From Burkholderiales bacterium (lineage in GTDB: Bacteria; Pseudomonadota; Gammaproteobacteria; Burkholderiales; Casimicrobiaceae): a stretch of 50,466 nucleotides of DNA. The DNA lies in the NCBI GenBank assembly GCA_014378555.1, contig JACMNN010000036.1, positions 1-50,466 of the forward strand, written 5' to 3'. The position numbers and the translations under genes are program-made. Below are positions 15,535 to 23,106 of this stretch, piece by piece. Numbering within the stretch: the first letter of the stretch is position 1; the number at the start of each line of letters is the position of its first letter. A model generated the notes under the pieces. That model did no database searches, was not told the DNA's origin, and worked only from the letters and a program-made list of their open reading frames with translations.

Positions 15535-15674
15535 CTACAAATTGTTGCATGCCCCCTGCTAAATCCACTTCCAACTCAGTCCGCCACGTTGTCGCTCCTC
15601 ATTGCCGTGCTCGCATATGGTCTTCGTAGTGACGCCCACCTCGAACCGAAATGAAATGAAATAAACTCACGCTT

Positions 15675-15903
15675 CAAGCAAGGTGCTCCACGCATGTTTT
15701 GGCATGCTGACGAGTGAAACGGGAAAACAGTGCGTCAATTTTTTTGGCCATTCTGTTACTGCCCCCGCAACGGTAAATCGCATTAACGCAGACTGCATTG
15801 ATCAGAGCATGAATATTTGCCCTGGTTACAGCCACTGAAACCTAGCGTTTTGGGAAGGCGCAGTCAAACGAGCGGCGAAAAGTCCGGAGACCGGCCCTGC
15901 TTG
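15675..15903 (+). promoter_or_regulatory. Adenosylcobalamin (B12) riboswitch upstream of btuB
   Basis: The leader has the conserved cobalamin aptamer segments in order: GGTGCTCC (15682-15689), GAAACGGGAAAACAGTGCG (15716-15734), GCCCCCGCAACGGTAA (15761-15776), the B12-box core AGCCACTG (15830-15837), GGGAAGGCG (15852-15860) and AGTCCGGAGACCGGCC (15881-15896). A closing P1 stem pairs CAAGCA-GG at 15675-15683 with CCTGCTTG at 15896-15903. The family lowers expression of downstream B12-uptake genes when adenosylcobalamin is plentiful. A 7-bp hairpin (CATTGCC/GGCAATG, 15906-15926) follows without a U tract, so control may act on translation. Confidence 0.93.
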
Positions 15904-16079
15904 TCCATTGCCCGCCTCAGGCAATGAAATTAATGCTGTCTGTGCGGGGATGCACGGTAAAGCGAATGTTTCCGGCCCAATTTTGTGCGGCTCACAAGGC
16001 ATTCCCTTTTCCTCATTGCTCTCAGCCATTCAGCAGCATCAGCTTGCCGAGCGGAGGGCTTGGTTTACAAAGGAATGTC

Positions 16080-17972
16080 ATGCAGTATTTACTAAGCTCG
16101 CGCGCGAGCATCCCCGTATCTTTTTCAAGCAAATTGCTGGTCACGGCAATAGCCGCAACCGGATGCGCGTTCAGTGCAACCACGATTGCACAAACCACCT
16201 CAGCCACCGCGACAGCGAAGGTCGACACGGTCATCGTCACCGCCACCCGCACGCCGACGCGAGTCGACCAAGCGTTGGGTGACGTCACCGTCATTGATCG
16301 CGGCCAGATCGAACAATCGGCCGGCAAGACATTGGCCGAGTTGCTAGGGCAGCAGGCAGGCGTGCAGTTTTGGGCCAACGGCGGTCAGGGTAAACCGAGT
16401 TCGGTGTCGCTGCGCGGTCTTGAAGCGCGACACACGCTGCTGTTGATCGACGGCGTGCGCTACAGCTCCGCCACGCTCGGCACGCCCACGTGGGAGAACA
16501 TTCCACTTGAATCCATTGAGCGCATTGAAATCGTTCGTGGCCCGCTGTCGGGCTTGTACGGCAGCGACGCCGTGGGCGGTGTCATTCAGATTTTTACGCG
16601 TCGGGGCAAAGACGGATTGCGCGGTAATGCCGTGGCCACCATCGGCTCCAAGCACTACGGGCAATTGGGCGCCGGACTGAGCTTCGGTCAAGGCGCGTTT
16701 GATGGTTCGGTTCAAGTGCAGCGTACCGAAAATCGTGGTTTCTCCGCGACCAACAGTCGTGTCCCGTTTGACCTTTACAACCCCGACAACGACGGCTTTC
16801 GGCAAAACAGTGGCAACGCCCAACTTGGCTGGAAAATCGGTGGTGGCTGGCGTGCTGACGCGCGCATTCTGCAATCCGACGGCGTCACCCAGTATGACGA
16901 CGGCCTGGGTGCCGATGCCAAAGCAAAGCTGCGCTCGCAGGTCGCCTCGGTCAATGTGGGCGGTCCGGTTACGGCCCTTTGGCAAACTAACGTGCGCGTT
17001 GCGCGCTCAACCGACGATTACGTTACGCTCGCCAGCGCATCGCCGTATAGCGATCTCGGCAAAATCGCCACCGTGCAAGATCAGTTGGCATGGGAAAACA
17101 CCATTGCTACGCCGGTTGGCGCAGCGGTAGTAATTCTTGAGCAAACTAAGCAAAAAGTCAGCCGTCCAGGCGAGCCGTTCACGTTGTCTGATCGCAACAT
17201 TATGGGCATCGCGGCAGGGCTGAATGGGGGTTTCGGCGCGCACCATTGGCAGGCCAATTTACGCCACGATAAAAACTCGCAATTCGGCTCGCAAACTACG
17301 GGCACCGCAGCCTACGGCTTTGACCTGACGTCAGCCTGGCGAATCGGTGCGGCGTACGGCACCAGCTTTGTCACGCCAACCTTTAACCAGCTCTACTACC
17401 CGGGTTATAGCAACCCGAAACTGCTGCCAGAAGAAGGCAAACAGTCTGAGGTCAACGTCCGCTGGCTCGGCAATAATCAACAAGCGCGCCTCACCTATTT
17501 TGACAGCCGAATTCGCGGCTACATCTCCAGCGGCCCGCTGCCAACTAACATTCCGCGCACGCGAATTGATGGCGTAACCGCGAGCTATGAAGCGCGTATC
17601 GCCAACGTCACCTTGGCGGCAAGCGTCGATCACGTCAATCCACGCAACGACAGCAGCGGATCATCGAGCTACGGCAAACTGTTGCCGCGACGCGTTAAAG
17701 ATTCGGCCAAACTGAGCGCTGACGTTGATCTAGGTGCTTGGCGCTTGGGTGGTTCGCTGGTCGCTTTTGGCGAGCGTTTTGAAGATGCCGCAAACAGCAC
17801 CCGGCTGCCCGGCTTTGCAACGCTTGACCTGCGCGCGGACTGGCGGCTTGCAAAGGAATGGTCGGTTGCCTTTCGCGTCAATAACGTTACCGGCAAAAAA
17901 TATGAAACCGTCTACGGCTACAACCAGCCCGGACGCGAGGGCTACCTGACGCTGCGTTACAGCGGCTTCTAG
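16080..17972 (+). CDS. btuB: TonB-dependent vitamin B12 outer-membrane receptor
   Basis: A 630-residue TonB-dependent receptor that imports cobalamin across the outer membrane. After a long signal region (about residues 1-38, ending in TTIAQT) comes a TonB box, DTVIVTA at 49-55. The plug domain begins near DVTVIDRGQIEQ, with the typical SVSLRGLEARHTLLLIDG and IERIEIVRGPLSGLYGSDAVGGV segments (none longer seen intact). The barrel closes with the C-terminal aromatic residue in LTLRYSGF. ATG 16080 has AGGA five bases upstream. The cobalamin riboswitch in its leader and btuFCD downstream make the substrate assignment strong. Upstream in-frame starts would run through the leader and are less likely. 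Confidence 0.93.
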   Translation: MQYLLSSRASIPVSFSSKLLVTAIAATGCAFSATTIAQTTSATATAKVDTVIVTATRTPTRVDQALGDVTVIDRGQIEQSAGKTLAELLGQQAGVQFWANGGQGKPSSVSLRGLEARHTLLLIDGVRYSSATLGTPTWENIPLESIERIEIVRGPLSGLYGSDAVGGVIQIFTRRGKDGLRGNAVATIGSKHYGQLGAGLSFGQGAFDGSVQVQRTENRGFSATNSRVPFDLYNPDNDGFRQNSGNAQLGWKIGGGWRADARILQSDGVTQYDDGLGADAKAKLRSQVASVNVGGPVTALWQTNVRVARSTDDYVTLASASPYSDLGKIATVQDQLAWENTIATPVGAAVVILEQTKQKVSRPGEPFTLSDRNIMGIAAGLNGGFGAHHWQANLRHDKNSQFGSQTTGTAAYGFDLTSAWRIGAAYGTSFVTPTFNQLYYPGYSNPKLLPEEGKQSEVNVRWLGNNQQARLTYFDSRIRGYISSGPLPTNIPRTRIDGVTASYEARIANVTLAASVDHVNPRNDSSGSSSYGKLLPRRVKDSAKLSADVDLGAWRLGGSLVAFGERFEDAANSTRLPGFATLDLRADWRLAKEWSVAFRVNNVTGKKYETVYGYNQPGREGYLTLRYSGF

Positions 17973-18087
17973 GCCACACGGATTCATGCGCGCGCTAATC
18001 CTCAATGATGGCAAACGTGGCAAACCAGCCGCGCCGGAAACGGCTGCGGCTGCATGTTTGCGAACCAGGGAGGTAGGGGCCGCGTTG

Positions 18088-19002
18088 ATGCGGCCGCGGG
18101 CGCTGGCGCGAATGGCTCGGGCACTAATCGCCGCTGCCAGCATCTGCGCCGTTGTCGGCAGCAACCCGGCTGCGGCACAAACTAGCGCGCCGATTGCGCT
18201 ACGAGATGATCGCGGCGTCGAGGTGCGATTTGCAGCTCCCCCGCAGCGCATCATCAGTCTGCTGCCGTCAGTTACTGAAAGCGTTTGTGCGCTGGGCGCC
18301 TGCAAGCGTCTGGTCGGCACCGACCAGTTTTCAAACACACCACCGGAAGTCATTGCGCTGCCGAAACTAGGCGGCTTGGATGATGCGCAAATCGAGCGTA
18401 TCGTTGCACTTAAACCTGATGTGGTGCTCGCCGCGAAATCAGCGCGGGTTGCTGAGCGATTAGAGTCACTCGGCGTTAAAGTCGTGGTGCTCGAATCACA
18501 AAGTCATGGCGACGTGAAGCGCACGCTGACGCTACTGGCGCAACTGCTGCGCTCGCCCGATCAGGCCGATCGGGTGTGGCGGCAAATCGAGCGCGACATC
18601 ACGCTCGCGGCGTCTCGGGTGCCGCAAGCATTGCGCGGCAAGAAAGTCTACTTCGAGATCTCGTCGGAGCCGTACGCGGCAGGCGAAAGCTCGTTCATCG
18701 GCGAAACGTTAACGCGACTGGGCATGGGCAACATTGCACCGCGCTCGCTCGGCCCGTTTCCCAAATTGAATCCCGAATTTATTGTTCGCGCCCGTCCCGA
18801 CATCATCATGGCGACCGATCGTCAAGTGCAGTCGATGGCCAGCCGTCCCGGTTGGTCGGGGTTGACAGCGATCCGGGGACGAAGCTGCGGCTTTGTAAAA
18901 GACCGCTATGAACTGCTGATTCGTCCCGGCCCGCGCATGGGCGAAGCGGCACTGGCGATCGCCGAATGTCTGGCCGGTTTGCGTGTCACACCCCCGCAAT
19001 GA
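18088..19002 (+). CDS. btuF: Periplasmic cobalamin-binding protein
   Basis: About 304 residues from ATG 18088, with a signal peptide (MRPRALARMARALIAAAS, then ending near PAAAQ) and the BtuF/FecB-type binding fold. Family features are PQRIISLLPSVTESVCALG, LVGTDQFSNTP and a DVVLAAKSAR helix. It should deliver B12 to BtuCD in the inner membrane. An in-frame ATG at 17986 exists, 14 bases after the btuB stop, but lacks a ribosome-binding site and would bury the signal peptide. GGAGGTAG at 18069-18076 supports 18088, although the spacing is rather long. Its stop overlaps the next start as ATGA. Confidence 0.88.
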   Translation: MRPRALARMARALIAAASICAVVGSNPAAAQTSAPIALRDDRGVEVRFAAPPQRIISLLPSVTESVCALGACKRLVGTDQFSNTPPEVIALPKLGGLDDAQIERIVALKPDVVLAAKSARVAERLESLGVKVVVLESQSHGDVKRTLTLLAQLLRSPDQADRVWRQIERDITLAASRVPQALRGKKVYFEISSEPYAAGESSFIGETLTRLGMGNIAPRSLGPFPKLNPEFIVRARPDIIMATDRQVQSMASRPGWSGLTAIRGRSCGFVKDRYELLIRPGPRMGEAALAIAECLAGLRVTPPQ

Positions 19003-20264
19003 ATAACAACTCGCCAACCCAATCCGTTCGCCTTGAGCGTAGCGAAGGGTCCGACAAATCCGTTCGCCCAGACAACTCCGTTCGCCCAGACACCGCCGTT
19101 CGTCCAAAAAACTCCGTTCGCCCTGAGCGTAGCGAAGGGTCTGACTTAGCGAGGCCATCAAACCCTTCGCTACGCTCAGGGCGAACAGTGACGGACACTA
19201 CGCCGGGCGATGCATCACACGTTGCGCTACACGAAGCCTCACACGAAGCATCACTCGATGCCTCACGCCGAACCACGCTAGCCATCGGCTTACTCATTGC
19301 GGCCATCGTATTCACCGCATTTGGCATCGCCGTAGGCAGCGAAGGCTTCTCGTTTACGCAGCTGCGCACCGACCTCGCCGCCGATGACGCCGCACTCATC
19401 CTCGGCCAAATTCGCGCGCCGCGAACGGTGGGCGCGTTGCTGGTTGGCGCACTGCTCGGCTTAGCGGGCGCGATTTCACAAGGATTATTTCGCAATCCGC
19501 TGGCCGACCCGTACTTGCTCGGCTCGGCCGCCGGCGCGTCGCTCGGCGTGGTGCTGGTGCTCGCCGCCGGTACAGCAAGCGGCATCATGATCTCGCTGGC
19601 AAACGTGCAGTGGATGGCGCGCATCGGCCTCGTCAGCGCCGCATTTTTAGGCGCATTAATCGGCGTGAGCCTCACGCTATTGCTTGCTCGCGGCGCGCAG
19701 CACACGTTGCGCCTGTTACTCGCGGGCGTGGTGGTGGGCGTGGTGTTGAACGCGATCACCGAATTGCTGGCCACCAGCAGCGCCGACGTACTGCGTGGCA
19801 AGCAGGCGTTTATGCTGGGCAGCACCGGGTTTCTCGGATGGCCCAGCGTTGCCGTGCTGGCTGCGGGCCTTGGCTTTGCGTTGCCGCTGGCGCGCATGTT
19901 GTCGCGAACGCTCGACGCACTCACCCTGGGCGAAGACAGCGCCGCCACGCTCGGTCTGCCGCTGGCAAAAATTCGCGCTACGCTGGTGCTGGTGCTCGCC
20001 GCCTGCACCGGGCTCGCCGTGTCGCAAGCGGGGCTGGTCGCCTTCGTGGGCCTCGCCGCACCACACCTGGTGCGCCGCTTTGCGCCGTCCACCCACGGCT
20101 ATGTGTTGATGATGAGCGCCGCGATGGGCGGCGTGCTGCTGCTCGGCGCGGACGTGCTGGCGCGCGGCGTGATCGCGCCACAAGAATTGCCGGTCGGCGT
20201 GGTCACCGCCATCCTCGGCGGCGGCTATTTGCTGTGGCTGCTGCACCGCCGGAAGTTTTCATGA
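18999..20264 (+). CDS. btuC: Vitamin B12 ABC permease with repeat-derived N-terminal extension
   Basis: An FecCD-family permease of 421 residues if started at ATG 18999, which overlaps the btuF stop. The membrane core begins near residue 93 (LAIGLLIAAIVF). It shows LVGALLGLAGAISQGLFRNPLADPYLLG and AAPHLVRRFAPSTHG regions in outline, typical of BtuC. The first roughly 90 residues are low-complexity (RPERSEGSD, SLRSGRT) and are encoded by copies of a palindromic repeat, so this BtuC is about 90 residues longer than normal. An in-frame GTG at 19188, with AGGG seven bases upstream, would give 358 residues and leave the repeats outside the protein. Which start is used is unresolved. Confidence 0.88.
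   Translation: MNNNSPTQSVRLERSEGSDKSVRPDNSVRPDTAVRPKNSVRPERSEGSDLARPSNPSLRSGRTVTDTTPGDASHVALHEASHEASLDASRRTTLAIGLLIAAIVFTAFGIAVGSEGFSFTQLRTDLAADDAALILGQIRAPRTVGALLVGALLGLAGAISQGLFRNPLADPYLLGSAAGASLGVVLVLAAGTASGIMISLANVQWMARIGLVSAAFLGALIGVSLTLLLARGAQHTLRLLLAGVVVGVVLNAITELLATSSADVLRGKQAFMLGSTGFLGWPSVAVLAAGLGFALPLARMLSRTLDALTLGEDSAATLGLPLAKIRATLVLVLAACTGLAVSQAGLVAFVGLAAPHLVRRFAPSTHGYVLMMSAAMGGVLLLGADVLARGVIAPQELPVGVVTAILGGGYLLWLLHRRKFS
19024..19189. repeat. Cluster of dispersed palindromic repeats inside the btuC 5' region
   Basis: Two full copies of the unit CGTTCGCC(C/T)TGAGCGTAGC followed by GAAGGGT occur at 19025-19051 and 19115-19141. Partial units CCGTTCGCCCAGACA lie between them, at about 19060-19100. 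An inverted copy at 19161-19187 faces the second full unit, so the two can form a long hairpin. There is no stop codon in the btuC frame across the whole cluster. Related copies lie at 21182, 22542, 22710 and 48777. Confidence 0.85.
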
Positions 20265-21031
20265 CAATTGGTGCAGAAAACCTGCGAGTCATTCTGGGTG
20301 ATCGCACCGTGTTGCACGACGTTTCATGCAGCTTTGAGCCCGGATGGACGGCGGTGGTTGGCCCCAACGGCGCAGGTAAATCAACGCTACTGAGGGCCCT
20401 CGCCGGACTGCTGAAACCGGCCAGCGGACAAGTCACGTTGCACGGCAAGCCGCTCACCGACTACGCGGCAAGCGTTCGCGGCAAAGCCATCGCATGGCTC
20501 GCGCAACAAGGCGAGACCACGGGCGAGCTGACCGCACGAGAAACCGTCCACCTCGGACGACTGCCACACATCGGTTTATTCGGCGCACCCACAGCCATTG
20601 ACGAGGCCATCGTCGACGCCGCACTCGCCGCCACCGCGAGCACCACTTGGCAGCATCGACGACTGTTTGAGCTCTCCGGCGGCGAACGGCAACGCGTGCT
20701 GCTATCGCGCGCACTCGCCACAGAATCACGGGTGCTGCTGCTCGACGAACCCACCACCCATCTCGATCCGCCGCACCAAGTAGCACTGGCCCGCCTGTTC
20801 CGCCGCCTAGCTAGCACCCACACCGTCATCACCGTGCTGCACGACTTGCCGCTAGCGGTGCAAGCGGATCGAATGCTGGTGATGCGTGACGGGGCCATTG
20901 CGGGACATGGCGAGTGCAATGATGCGGTGCTACACGCAGCATTGGCTGACGCGTTTGATCATGCAATTGTGGTCACCGCTGCTGTCGCGCCGAGTCAGCG
21001 GCCCTCGGTTACGTTGCGGCTTGACGATTGA
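20261..21031 (+). CDS. btuD: Vitamin B12 import ATPase
   Basis: A 256-residue ABC ATPase that powers B12 import with BtuC. It has Walker A GPNGAGKST near residues 35-43, LSGGERQR as signature, and LLLDEPTTHLD as Walker B with the catalytic glutamate, followed by VLHDLPLA as the switch-histidine segment. Its ATG overlaps the btuC stop as ATGA, showing translational coupling. A much longer in-frame extension exists upstream through btuC but is out-of-frame read-through of that gene. It is the last gene of the riboswitch-controlled unit btuB-F-C-D. Confidence 0.92.
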   Translation: MTIGAENLRVILGDRTVLHDVSCSFEPGWTAVVGPNGAGKSTLLRALAGLLKPASGQVTLHGKPLTDYAASVRGKAIAWLAQQGETTGELTARETVHLGRLPHIGLFGAPTAIDEAIVDAALAATASTTWQHRRLFELSGGERQRVLLSRALATESRVLLLDEPTTHLDPPHQVALARLFRRLASTHTVITVLHDLPLAVQADRMLVMRDGAIAGHGECNDAVLHAALADAFDHAIVVTAAVAPSQRPSVTLRLDD

Positions 21032-21181: not shown

Positions 21182-21213
21182 CAAACCCTTCGCTGCGCTC
21201 AGGGCGAACGGTT
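21182..21213 (-). repeat. Dispersed palindromic repeat, single inverted unit
   Basis: AAACCCTTCGCTGCGCTCAG followed by GGCGAACGGTT is one arm of the repeat family found in btuC and putA, here in reverse orientation. It has no partner arm nearby. The poly-G run begins three bases downstream of it. Confidence 0.85.
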
Positions 21214-22541: not shown

Positions 22542-22675
22542 CGCTCGCCCTGAGCCAACGGCGAAGGGTTTGACCACCGGCGAGTCTCGTCAGACCCTTC
22601 GCTCTGCTCAGGGCGAACGGTAAATTTAATGGCTTTGATCCTGCGCCAAAAGCGTCGCGCCTGAACGTGATAGCG
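22542..22675. repeat. Direct-repeat unit 1 containing a palindromic repeat pair
   Basis: The unit holds two opposed palindromic arms (CTCGCCCTGAGCC..GCGAAGGGT at 22544-22569 and ACCCTTCGC..CAGGGCGAACG at 22593-22619) around a short linker, then TAAATTTAATGGCTTTG. Nearly the same 107 bases recur at 22710, and weaker similarity extends about 27 bases further. It lies between zapA and the 6S RNA gene. Confidence 0.85.
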
Positions 22676-22709
22676 CACCCAATTAGGCGGTCACACCAGA
22701 CCCCAACCC

Positions 22710-22843
22710 CGTTCACCCTGAGCCAACGGCGAAGGGTTTGACCACCGGCGAGTCTCGTCAGACCCTTCGCTTTGCTCAGGGCGAACGGTAAATTAAATGG
22801 CTTTGTTGCTGCGCCACAATCGTCTTGTCTGAGCGTGGCAGAG
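22710..22843. repeat. Direct-repeat unit 2 containing a palindromic repeat pair
   Basis: This is a near-copy of the unit at 22542, shifted by 168 bases. The first 107 bases match with only a handful of differences, including the linker ACCACCGGCGAGTCTCGTC, which points to a recent local duplication. Either unit can form a long hairpin as RNA or single-stranded DNA. Confidence 0.85.
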
Positions 22844-22892: not shown

Positions 22893-23106
22893 CTGCTCCT
22901 GCGGTGTTTGTGGCGGTCGAATATTTCTTTGAGCCAATGCGCTTGTCGCGAGGAAGCCTGACCTTACTGTGGACGTGTGCGCGGCTCTTGATCTGGTGAC
23001 TTCGGTCGCTACCTCTCGCCAGCTGTACCTAGCGCCACGGTGCAGGCATCCACTCTTGAACCCTGGTTCAAGATGCCGGCCGCTGCGGCATACGCGGGAG
23101 TCTGAA
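22893..23106 (+). ncRNA. ssrS: 6S RNA
   Basis: A roughly 210-base RNA gene downstream of zapA. The closing stem is CTCCTGCG (22896-22903) with CGCGGGAG (23093-23100). The 5' part reads like other 6S RNAs (GGTGTTTG..CTTTGAGCC), and the 3' part has the conserved CTTGAACCCTGGTTCAAG (23055-23072) and GCCGCTGCGGCA. The mature RNA imitates an open promoter and holds RNA polymerase sigma-70 in stationary phase. The order zapA-ssrS-EVE gene is common in betaproteobacteria. Ends are estimated from the stem and the T run at 23106-23111. Confidence 0.85.

Follow-up and report, generated by a model that had tools for sequence, protein, structure and literature searches.

The btuC-like gene described here opens with a cluster of palindromic repeats, and the question is whether this repeat DNA is translated as an N-terminal extension of the permease, from a start codon overlapping the end of btuF, or whether the protein starts behind the repeat, at an in-frame GTG. 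The window, i.e. the whole stretch of DNA analysed (50,466 nucleotides), belongs to a MAG, hereafter G000, of 3.55 Mb in 274 contigs and 87% complete.

A repeat cluster within the open frame of btuC

The gene row that holds the cluster is led by a riboswitch and includes the following features:

15664..15913, + strand: cobalamin riboswitch aptamer (Rfam RF00174, 81.2 bits; gathering threshold 31.5), upstream of the TonB-dependent receptor, btuF, btuC and btuD genes
15924-17972: TonB-dependent receptor gene, matching TonB barrel and plug
17986..19002, + strand: btuF-like periplasmic binding protein gene (Pfam Peripla_BP_2, 117.8 bits)
18999..19002, + strand: ATGA, in which the btuC start overlaps the btuF stop (TGA 19000-19002); the same overlap is present in the related genome G005
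18999..20264, + strand: btuC-like gene for a FecCD permease, 421 aa long when counted from the native start (Pfam FecCD, 240.8 bits, cut-off 26.5, residues 103-417)
20261..21031, + strand: btuD-like ABC ATPase gene (Pfam ABC_tran, 110.9 bits), with an ATGA overlap with the btuC stop

The permease misses the NCBIfam BtuC equivalog cut-off (182.5 bits against 334), so the B12 role of the transporter is deduced from the riboswitch and the gene context. The best solved matches of its structural model in Foldseek were BhuU and BtuC chains. Over its residues 103-417, where FecCD matches, the protein resembles other BtuC/FecCD permeases, from which it differs by 83 extra residues at the N-terminus.

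The beginning of btuC is organised as follows:

19003..19256, + strand: region within which the window is, on balance and in frame, 249 bp (83 codons) longer than G005 (pairwise alignment, offsets)
19026..19050, + strand: REP unit, forward (core 19034-19049)
19053..19124, + strand: half-units, GACAANTCCGTTCGCCCA-like, with 18-nt spacing
19116..19186, + strand: REP dimer, predicted to fold as an RNA hairpin in which 25 pairs follow one another without a break, and whose 3' arm includes AGGG 19178-19181
19188..19190, + strand: GTG, alternative in-frame start giving a 358-aa protein
19209..19268, + strand: five 12-nt units, GATGCATCACAC/GTTGCGCTACAC/GAAGCCTCACAC/GAAGCATCACTC/GATGCCTCACGC, read directly as DASH/VALH/EASH/EASL/DASR

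The REP-type cluster (19026-19186) thus lies between ATG 18999 and the conserved permease body, in frame and stop-free. Specifically, the frame from ATG 18999 reads MNNNSPTQSVRLERSEGSDKSVRPDNSVRPDTAVRPKNSVRPERSEGSDLARPSNPSLRSGRT-VTDTT..., continues into the permease body and meets its first stop only at 20262; 63 residues are encoded before GTG 19188 is reached. This is the only one of the three forward frames of the array that is open, the other two being interrupted by stops. The in-frame start codons ahead of the btuC body are ATG 18966, ATG 18999 and GTG 19188. The inverted arms of the dimer (19116-19144 and 19158-19186) are 97% complementary across 29 nt, and its predicted fold reaches -58.3 kcal/mol (z -8.7), with none of 200 shuffles equally stable. 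The first-pass annotation had held that the N-terminus of btuC is read from a repeat family, with the ATGA coupling to btuF kept and no stop codon, and the coordinates given above bear this out.

Further REP cores were detected in the window at 21186-21201 and 22595-22778 in a search allowing up to two mismatches; the latter pair sits shortly before a 6S RNA match at 22893-23104.

The repeat family in G000 and its relatives

The 16-mer core TGAGCGTAGCGAAGGG has 190 matches in G000 when up to one mismatch is allowed, and the reversed pattern has 0, which identifies the btuC cluster as a genuine repeat and not a chance palindrome. Exact copies of TGAGCGNAGCGAAGGG number 176 in G000, 51 in G011, 12 in G003, 10 in G005, 7 in G007 and 2 in G012; G004 and G001 have a single copy apiece, and the other nine of the 17 genus genomes have none. 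Dimers and arrays are spread over many G000 contigs, and by copy number and form the family is REP. GTAG is found in the cores of the window copies, but the base after TGAGCG varies between copies (T, C, A or G); compared with the REPs in the available part of PMC3733652, the core found here (TGAGCGNAGCGAAGGG) lacks a clear invariant GTAG tag. G000 carries two Y1_Tnp (RAYT-like transposase) genes above cut-off, with no REP core within the approximately 1.5 kb searched on each side of either gene in this incomplete assembly.

A GGGCGAAC tail is present at 232 of 248 REP ends. Behind these tails, a GTG at the spacing seen in btuC occurs 16 times in 232, near the 1/16 that chance would give for two bases. 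Repeat-supplied starts are therefore not a property of the family.

An empty site in G005 identifies the inherited start

The first-pass annotation had proposed a comparison with the btuC of a close relative free of the repeat, and genome G005, from the same genus, offers it. Its BtuC is 88% identical to that of the window, and btuF ends and btuC starts at the same ATGA, followed directly by MKQDASRRKTLAIG (MKQDASRRKTLAIGLL; empty-site sequence ...CGCAATGAAGCAAGACGCATCTCGCCGC...). Counted from the ATG as far as the homologue of the D codon of DASR, the stretch is 258 bases long in the window and 9 in G005, which makes the window longer by 249 bases net, with the frame kept. This is an in-frame insertion into a conserved ORF as judged against a repeat-free homologue, the mark of an RPE-like, protein-coding palindromic repeat. 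Where the window has five 12-nt units, G005 has one DASR unit; accordingly, the 249-bp gain, whose borders rest on this one relative, would comprise the repeat cluster together with apparent short duplications in multiples of three.

The overlapping start is conserved well beyond this pair. Of 80 btuC-like loci taken from public genomes, 51 are immediately preceded by a btuF-like gene, and at 40 of those 51 the two genes share an in-frame NTGA overlap (the 40 include the G005 contig and locus L122, the protein of which would be too short). The REP peptide is in none of the 40 N-termini over the first 30 residues compared. Taken together, the NTGA overlap and the G005 sequence indicate that ATG 18999 is the inherited start and the insert the derived state. 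The residues preceding the membrane part number 16 in relatives (median; maximum 41), and in the window approximately 92 from ATG 18999 or 29 from GTG 19188.

The position of the insert, directly behind the NTGA overlap (ATGA 18999-19002), recalls the MIRUs, which according to the available part of PMC12548453 insert at the start codons of neighbouring genes with a -4 spacing and keep the coupling. They differ in that a MIRU couples its own ORF to the next gene, whereas the btuC repeat has no such ORF and lengthens the downstream gene. A target-site duplication, or a MIRU-like twin start, was considered and dropped: the 17 bases at ATG 18999 and GTG 19188 match at 10 positions, a score reached in 14% of trials in which the 13 bases behind NTGA were shuffled.

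Translated extension or downstream GTG start

We consider it probable that the predicted extension is translated from ATG 18999, which is likelier than a start at GTG 19188. Of the two alternatives offered by the first-pass annotation, the N-terminal extension is thus the better supported one, by the empty site in G005, by the conserved NTGA overlap and by the in-frame REPs of other genes described below.

The open frame alone is weak evidence for translation: among 21,286 overlapping 189-nt segments taken from other REP arrays (42 loci), 15% lack a stop in a specified frame. Combined with an assumed one in three for the frame match, this nevertheless leaves a chance of about 5% for the observed arrangement if btuC started at the GTG and the DNA upstream were unconstrained.

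The competing reading, which we hold possible but distinctly less likely, is that the repeat is an untranslated leader, open by luck, and that BtuC starts at GTG 19188 with the AGGG of the REP arm (19178-19181) as a Shine-Dalgarno-like site. The GTG is in frame, its 358-aa product is of normal length, and 29 residues ahead of the membrane part fall inside the range of relatives. Pairing with the anti-Shine-Dalgarno is also somewhat better there than at ATG 18999 (-3.5 versus -1.9 kcal/mol). A parallel exists in G000: in soxX, four REP dimers are followed by CAGGGCGAACGGTGG and then by a signal-like peptide, so that the GTG right behind the array is, from the sequence, a likely and sensible start even though the AGGG is again in a REP arm; a GTG behind a REP can therefore plausibly serve as a start. 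The four dimers of this soxX locus (L052, G000:C16:4078-5040) lie in frame with 120-bp spacing. In addition, most 5'-end REPs in ORFs of P. putida, C. koseri and S. maltophilia were judged possibly non-coding, as far as the available part of PMC3733652 goes.

Against this stands the hairpin. Its 25-bp stem, directly ahead of GTG 19188, holds the AGGG in its 3' arm, and the predicted cost of opening positions -18 to +12 is about 41 kcal/mol there, compared with 7-8 kcal/mol at ATG 18999 and 9 kcal/mol at the G005 ATG. Nor can an upstream ORF feed the GTG by coupling: the frame of TGA 19189 is closed by a stop at 19147, after which it has no ATG, GTG or TTG. The GTG itself occurs behind REP ends only at the chance frequency reported above (16 of 232), and the open frame from ATG 18999 would be mere luck. 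The second alternative of the first-pass annotation therefore keeps its normal-length product and the soxX parallel, but is weakened by the occluded AGGG and by a GTG that is no more frequent than expected. Long and short forms of BtuC could also both be made.

Codon composition counts against a translated extension: its GC3 is 0.54, lower than in the btuC body (0.78) and in btuF (0.64), so the extension does not look codon-adapted. The AlphaFold2 model, built with 20 relatives, gives residues 1-67 a pLDDT below 50 and helices from residue 72, with a mean pLDDT of only 68.4 for the model as a whole and low values in parts of the BtuC body too.

With ATG 18999 as the start, we propose the following course of events. 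The REP cluster would have arrived in the window lineage behind the native btuC start and would then have grown as short stretches were duplicated in multiples of three. Ribosomes finishing btuF would restart at ATG 18999 and melt the repeat hairpin during elongation, and the product would be BtuC with approximately 83 extra, disordered, cytoplasmic N-terminal residues. In the known transporter the N-terminus of BtuC is cytoplasmic, and a floppy tail there should do little harm; being outside the membrane core, the extension may be tolerated as such inserts are in interdomain linkers. It is probably ballast, under weak constraint at most and with no new function.

A possible RNA role for the hairpin, pseudogene decay or assembly error

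The hairpin might instead be mainly an RNA device that protects the btuF mRNA, lowers btuC-btuD output and thus sets the binding protein above the permease, its coding capacity being incidental. In E. coli, the malE-malF boundary between binding protein and permease carries a REP hairpin, which provides a parallel. The repeat likewise sits where a binding-protein gene meets a permease gene, in a row led by a riboswitch, and its predicted stability was matched by no shuffle. However, the same gene pair does without the hairpin in G005, ribosomes from ATG 18999 would melt it, and the REP also lies inside at least four unrelated genes, which fits tolerance better than a purpose at btuC. For these reasons we regard an RNA device as the main role of the repeat as quite improbable.

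Still less credence is given to a btuC on its way to becoming a pseudogene, or to an insert created by the assembly, and we judge these very improbable. Assemblies do fail at repeats, and G000 is a MAG of 274 contigs at 87% completeness; a false join, though, would need to have left both the ATGA and the frame intact and to have kept homology in either flank. Decay is contradicted by a btuC body that is intact, is 88% identical to that of G005 and is followed by a btuD coupled directly by ATGA.

In-frame repeats in other genes of G000

ORFs running through clusters were sought in 58 stretches around listed clusters. Among these, at least four conserved genes of G000 have REPs internally or near the C-terminus, all in frame and open; these cases were found by seeking such ORFs and are not a random sample. 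In a fusion of salicylyl-CoA 5-hydroxylase and OYE (NCBIfam PRK08255, 1380 bits, cut-off 1078), a REP array occupies the interdomain linker: 261 residues separate the anchors in G000, compared with 63 in G001, 36 in G015, 23 in G004, 63 in G005 and 63 in G011. In an SNF2 helicase the insert is flanked by GLGKTVQ and SLIIAPTSVLSNW, which in G005 are separated by four residues. An acyl-CoA dehydrogenase insert is common to G000 and G011 and absent from G014 and G006, and a HODM-like protein has its REP near the C-terminus, absent in G006 and G009 and with a possible remnant in G015. In the helicase, the dehydrogenase and the HODM-like protein no later start yields a whole protein, while the OYE fusion could still be imagined as two separate proteins.

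The SNF2 helicase site (L197-L199) is occupied in G011 and G013 by different insertions, about as long as that of G000, the G011 one being P/G/S-rich, like the second palindrome family described below.

A codon-usage classifier was applied to the clusters as well. With strict settings both edges were coding in 0 of 66 and 2 of 67 clusters. A looser version found coding up to both edges on one strand in 5 of 65; of these five, three fall within a single gene, each of them open with the frame kept, and two between different genes. With wider pads, 9 of 65 and 10 of 63 clusters were classed as "different frame", the btuF/btuC boundary among them, and 1 (of 65) and 4 (of 63) as same frame with stops; some of these clusters may therefore mark genes that the repeat has broken.

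The OYE array, with four tandem units, allows the codon changes between units to be compared. Per-site dN/dS in the reading frame was 0.65, 0.70, 0.50, 0.63, 0.37 and 1.95, the last value being that of the closest pair; the +1 frame gave 0.93-3.0 and the +2 frame 0.21-2.41, a range that overlaps that of the reading frame, and the six pairs are not independent. The pattern is a hint, short of proof, that the peptide encoded by the repeat is weakly constrained. Raw counts, with nonsynonymous exceeding synonymous codons in 6 of 6 pairs, had pointed to no constraint, a reading that the per-site values modify. As the hint concerns another gene, it leaves the odds for btuC unchanged.

REP clusters also stand shortly before five further genes, in the same open frame: glnS (L064), purA (L083), a livM-like gene (L090), a transport permease gene (L091) and a GNAT gene (L107). 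In each case a sensible ATG follows the repeat, so that annotation could make these genes too long.

A second palindrome family in the same linker

The most unusual side observation is that the palindrome family filling one and the same linker depends on the species. The linker of the OYE fusion holds the REP array in G000 (L191/L100, G000:C190) and an unrelated palindrome family in G001, G005 and G011 (L192, L195, L196), the palindromes of which, folded in isolation, give hairpins of -79 to -85 kcal/mol. A first search pattern for this second family returned few copies and a second one 38 matches in 8 of 17 genomes; as the reversed pattern is nearly the same string, the reversed control carries no information on how many of the 38 are due to chance.

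In the acyl-CoA dehydrogenase (L209-L212), a second palindrome-like repeat, giving SPNPSPPGGGE-like peptides, is found in frame within the N-terminal half of the protein in all four species aligned. The dehydrogenase query had 70 matches in G010, several of which, among those listed, cover just the SPNPSPPGGGE-like stretch.

A wider reading would combine several of these points: unrelated palindromes would be a recurrent source of linkers and tails in the genus, as where the same linker holds a REP array in one species and the other family in three, the codons would hint at a selected peptide, and the btuC hairpin would tune the ratio of permease to binding protein. In this combined form the proposal appears doubtful to us.

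Relation to known systems

The entry of repeat DNA into proteins, N-terminal REPs included, is already described. The available part of PMC3733652 reports REPs within genes, some of them N-terminal, with clusters encoding 43-82 residues (Thauera, R. conorii), and already proposes neutral insertion into flexible linkers or loops. It notes that many N-terminal REPs may fall outside the real gene, and also that N-terminal RPE-1 proteins of R. conorii are expressed in vivo. The btuC case is like these intragenic REPs (GTAG and CGTC superfamilies) in having REP units inside an ORF, in frame and at the N-terminus. With respect to the same portion of the survey, what differs is that for btuC both an empty site and the native start, with its overlap, have been located, and that one linker carries different palindrome families. 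Thus the view of the first-pass annotation that either answer would be unusual was overstated, at least in light of what that part of the survey contains.

Its comparison with the Rickettsia palindromic elements (RPE) is apt, although the REPs of PMC3733652, on the text available, are the nearer precedent. As is proposed for the btuC repeat, RPEs are palindromes translated as parts of unrelated proteins; they belong to a different repeat family and host, and the btuC extension is a prediction from sequence. Enterobacterial RU-1/2/3, small MITE-like repeats that keep reading frames in annotated genes (PMC2759123, available part), are 103-168-bp elements of another kind, likened to the btuC repeat by description only. 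In the literature searched, no paper was found for the peptides RPERSEG, RPELVEG, FALSLSKG or SLRSGRT.

In conclusion, G005 and the window form a clean before-and-after pair for a REP cluster directly behind an overlapping start, and the pair opens to direct test an old question, namely whether REPs at N-termini are truly translated or only annotated as such. For gene callers it is a caution that neither start should be chosen without evidence. Together with the other in-frame inserts of G000, the btuC cluster suggests that in this group palindromic repeats have become protein linkers or tails more than once.
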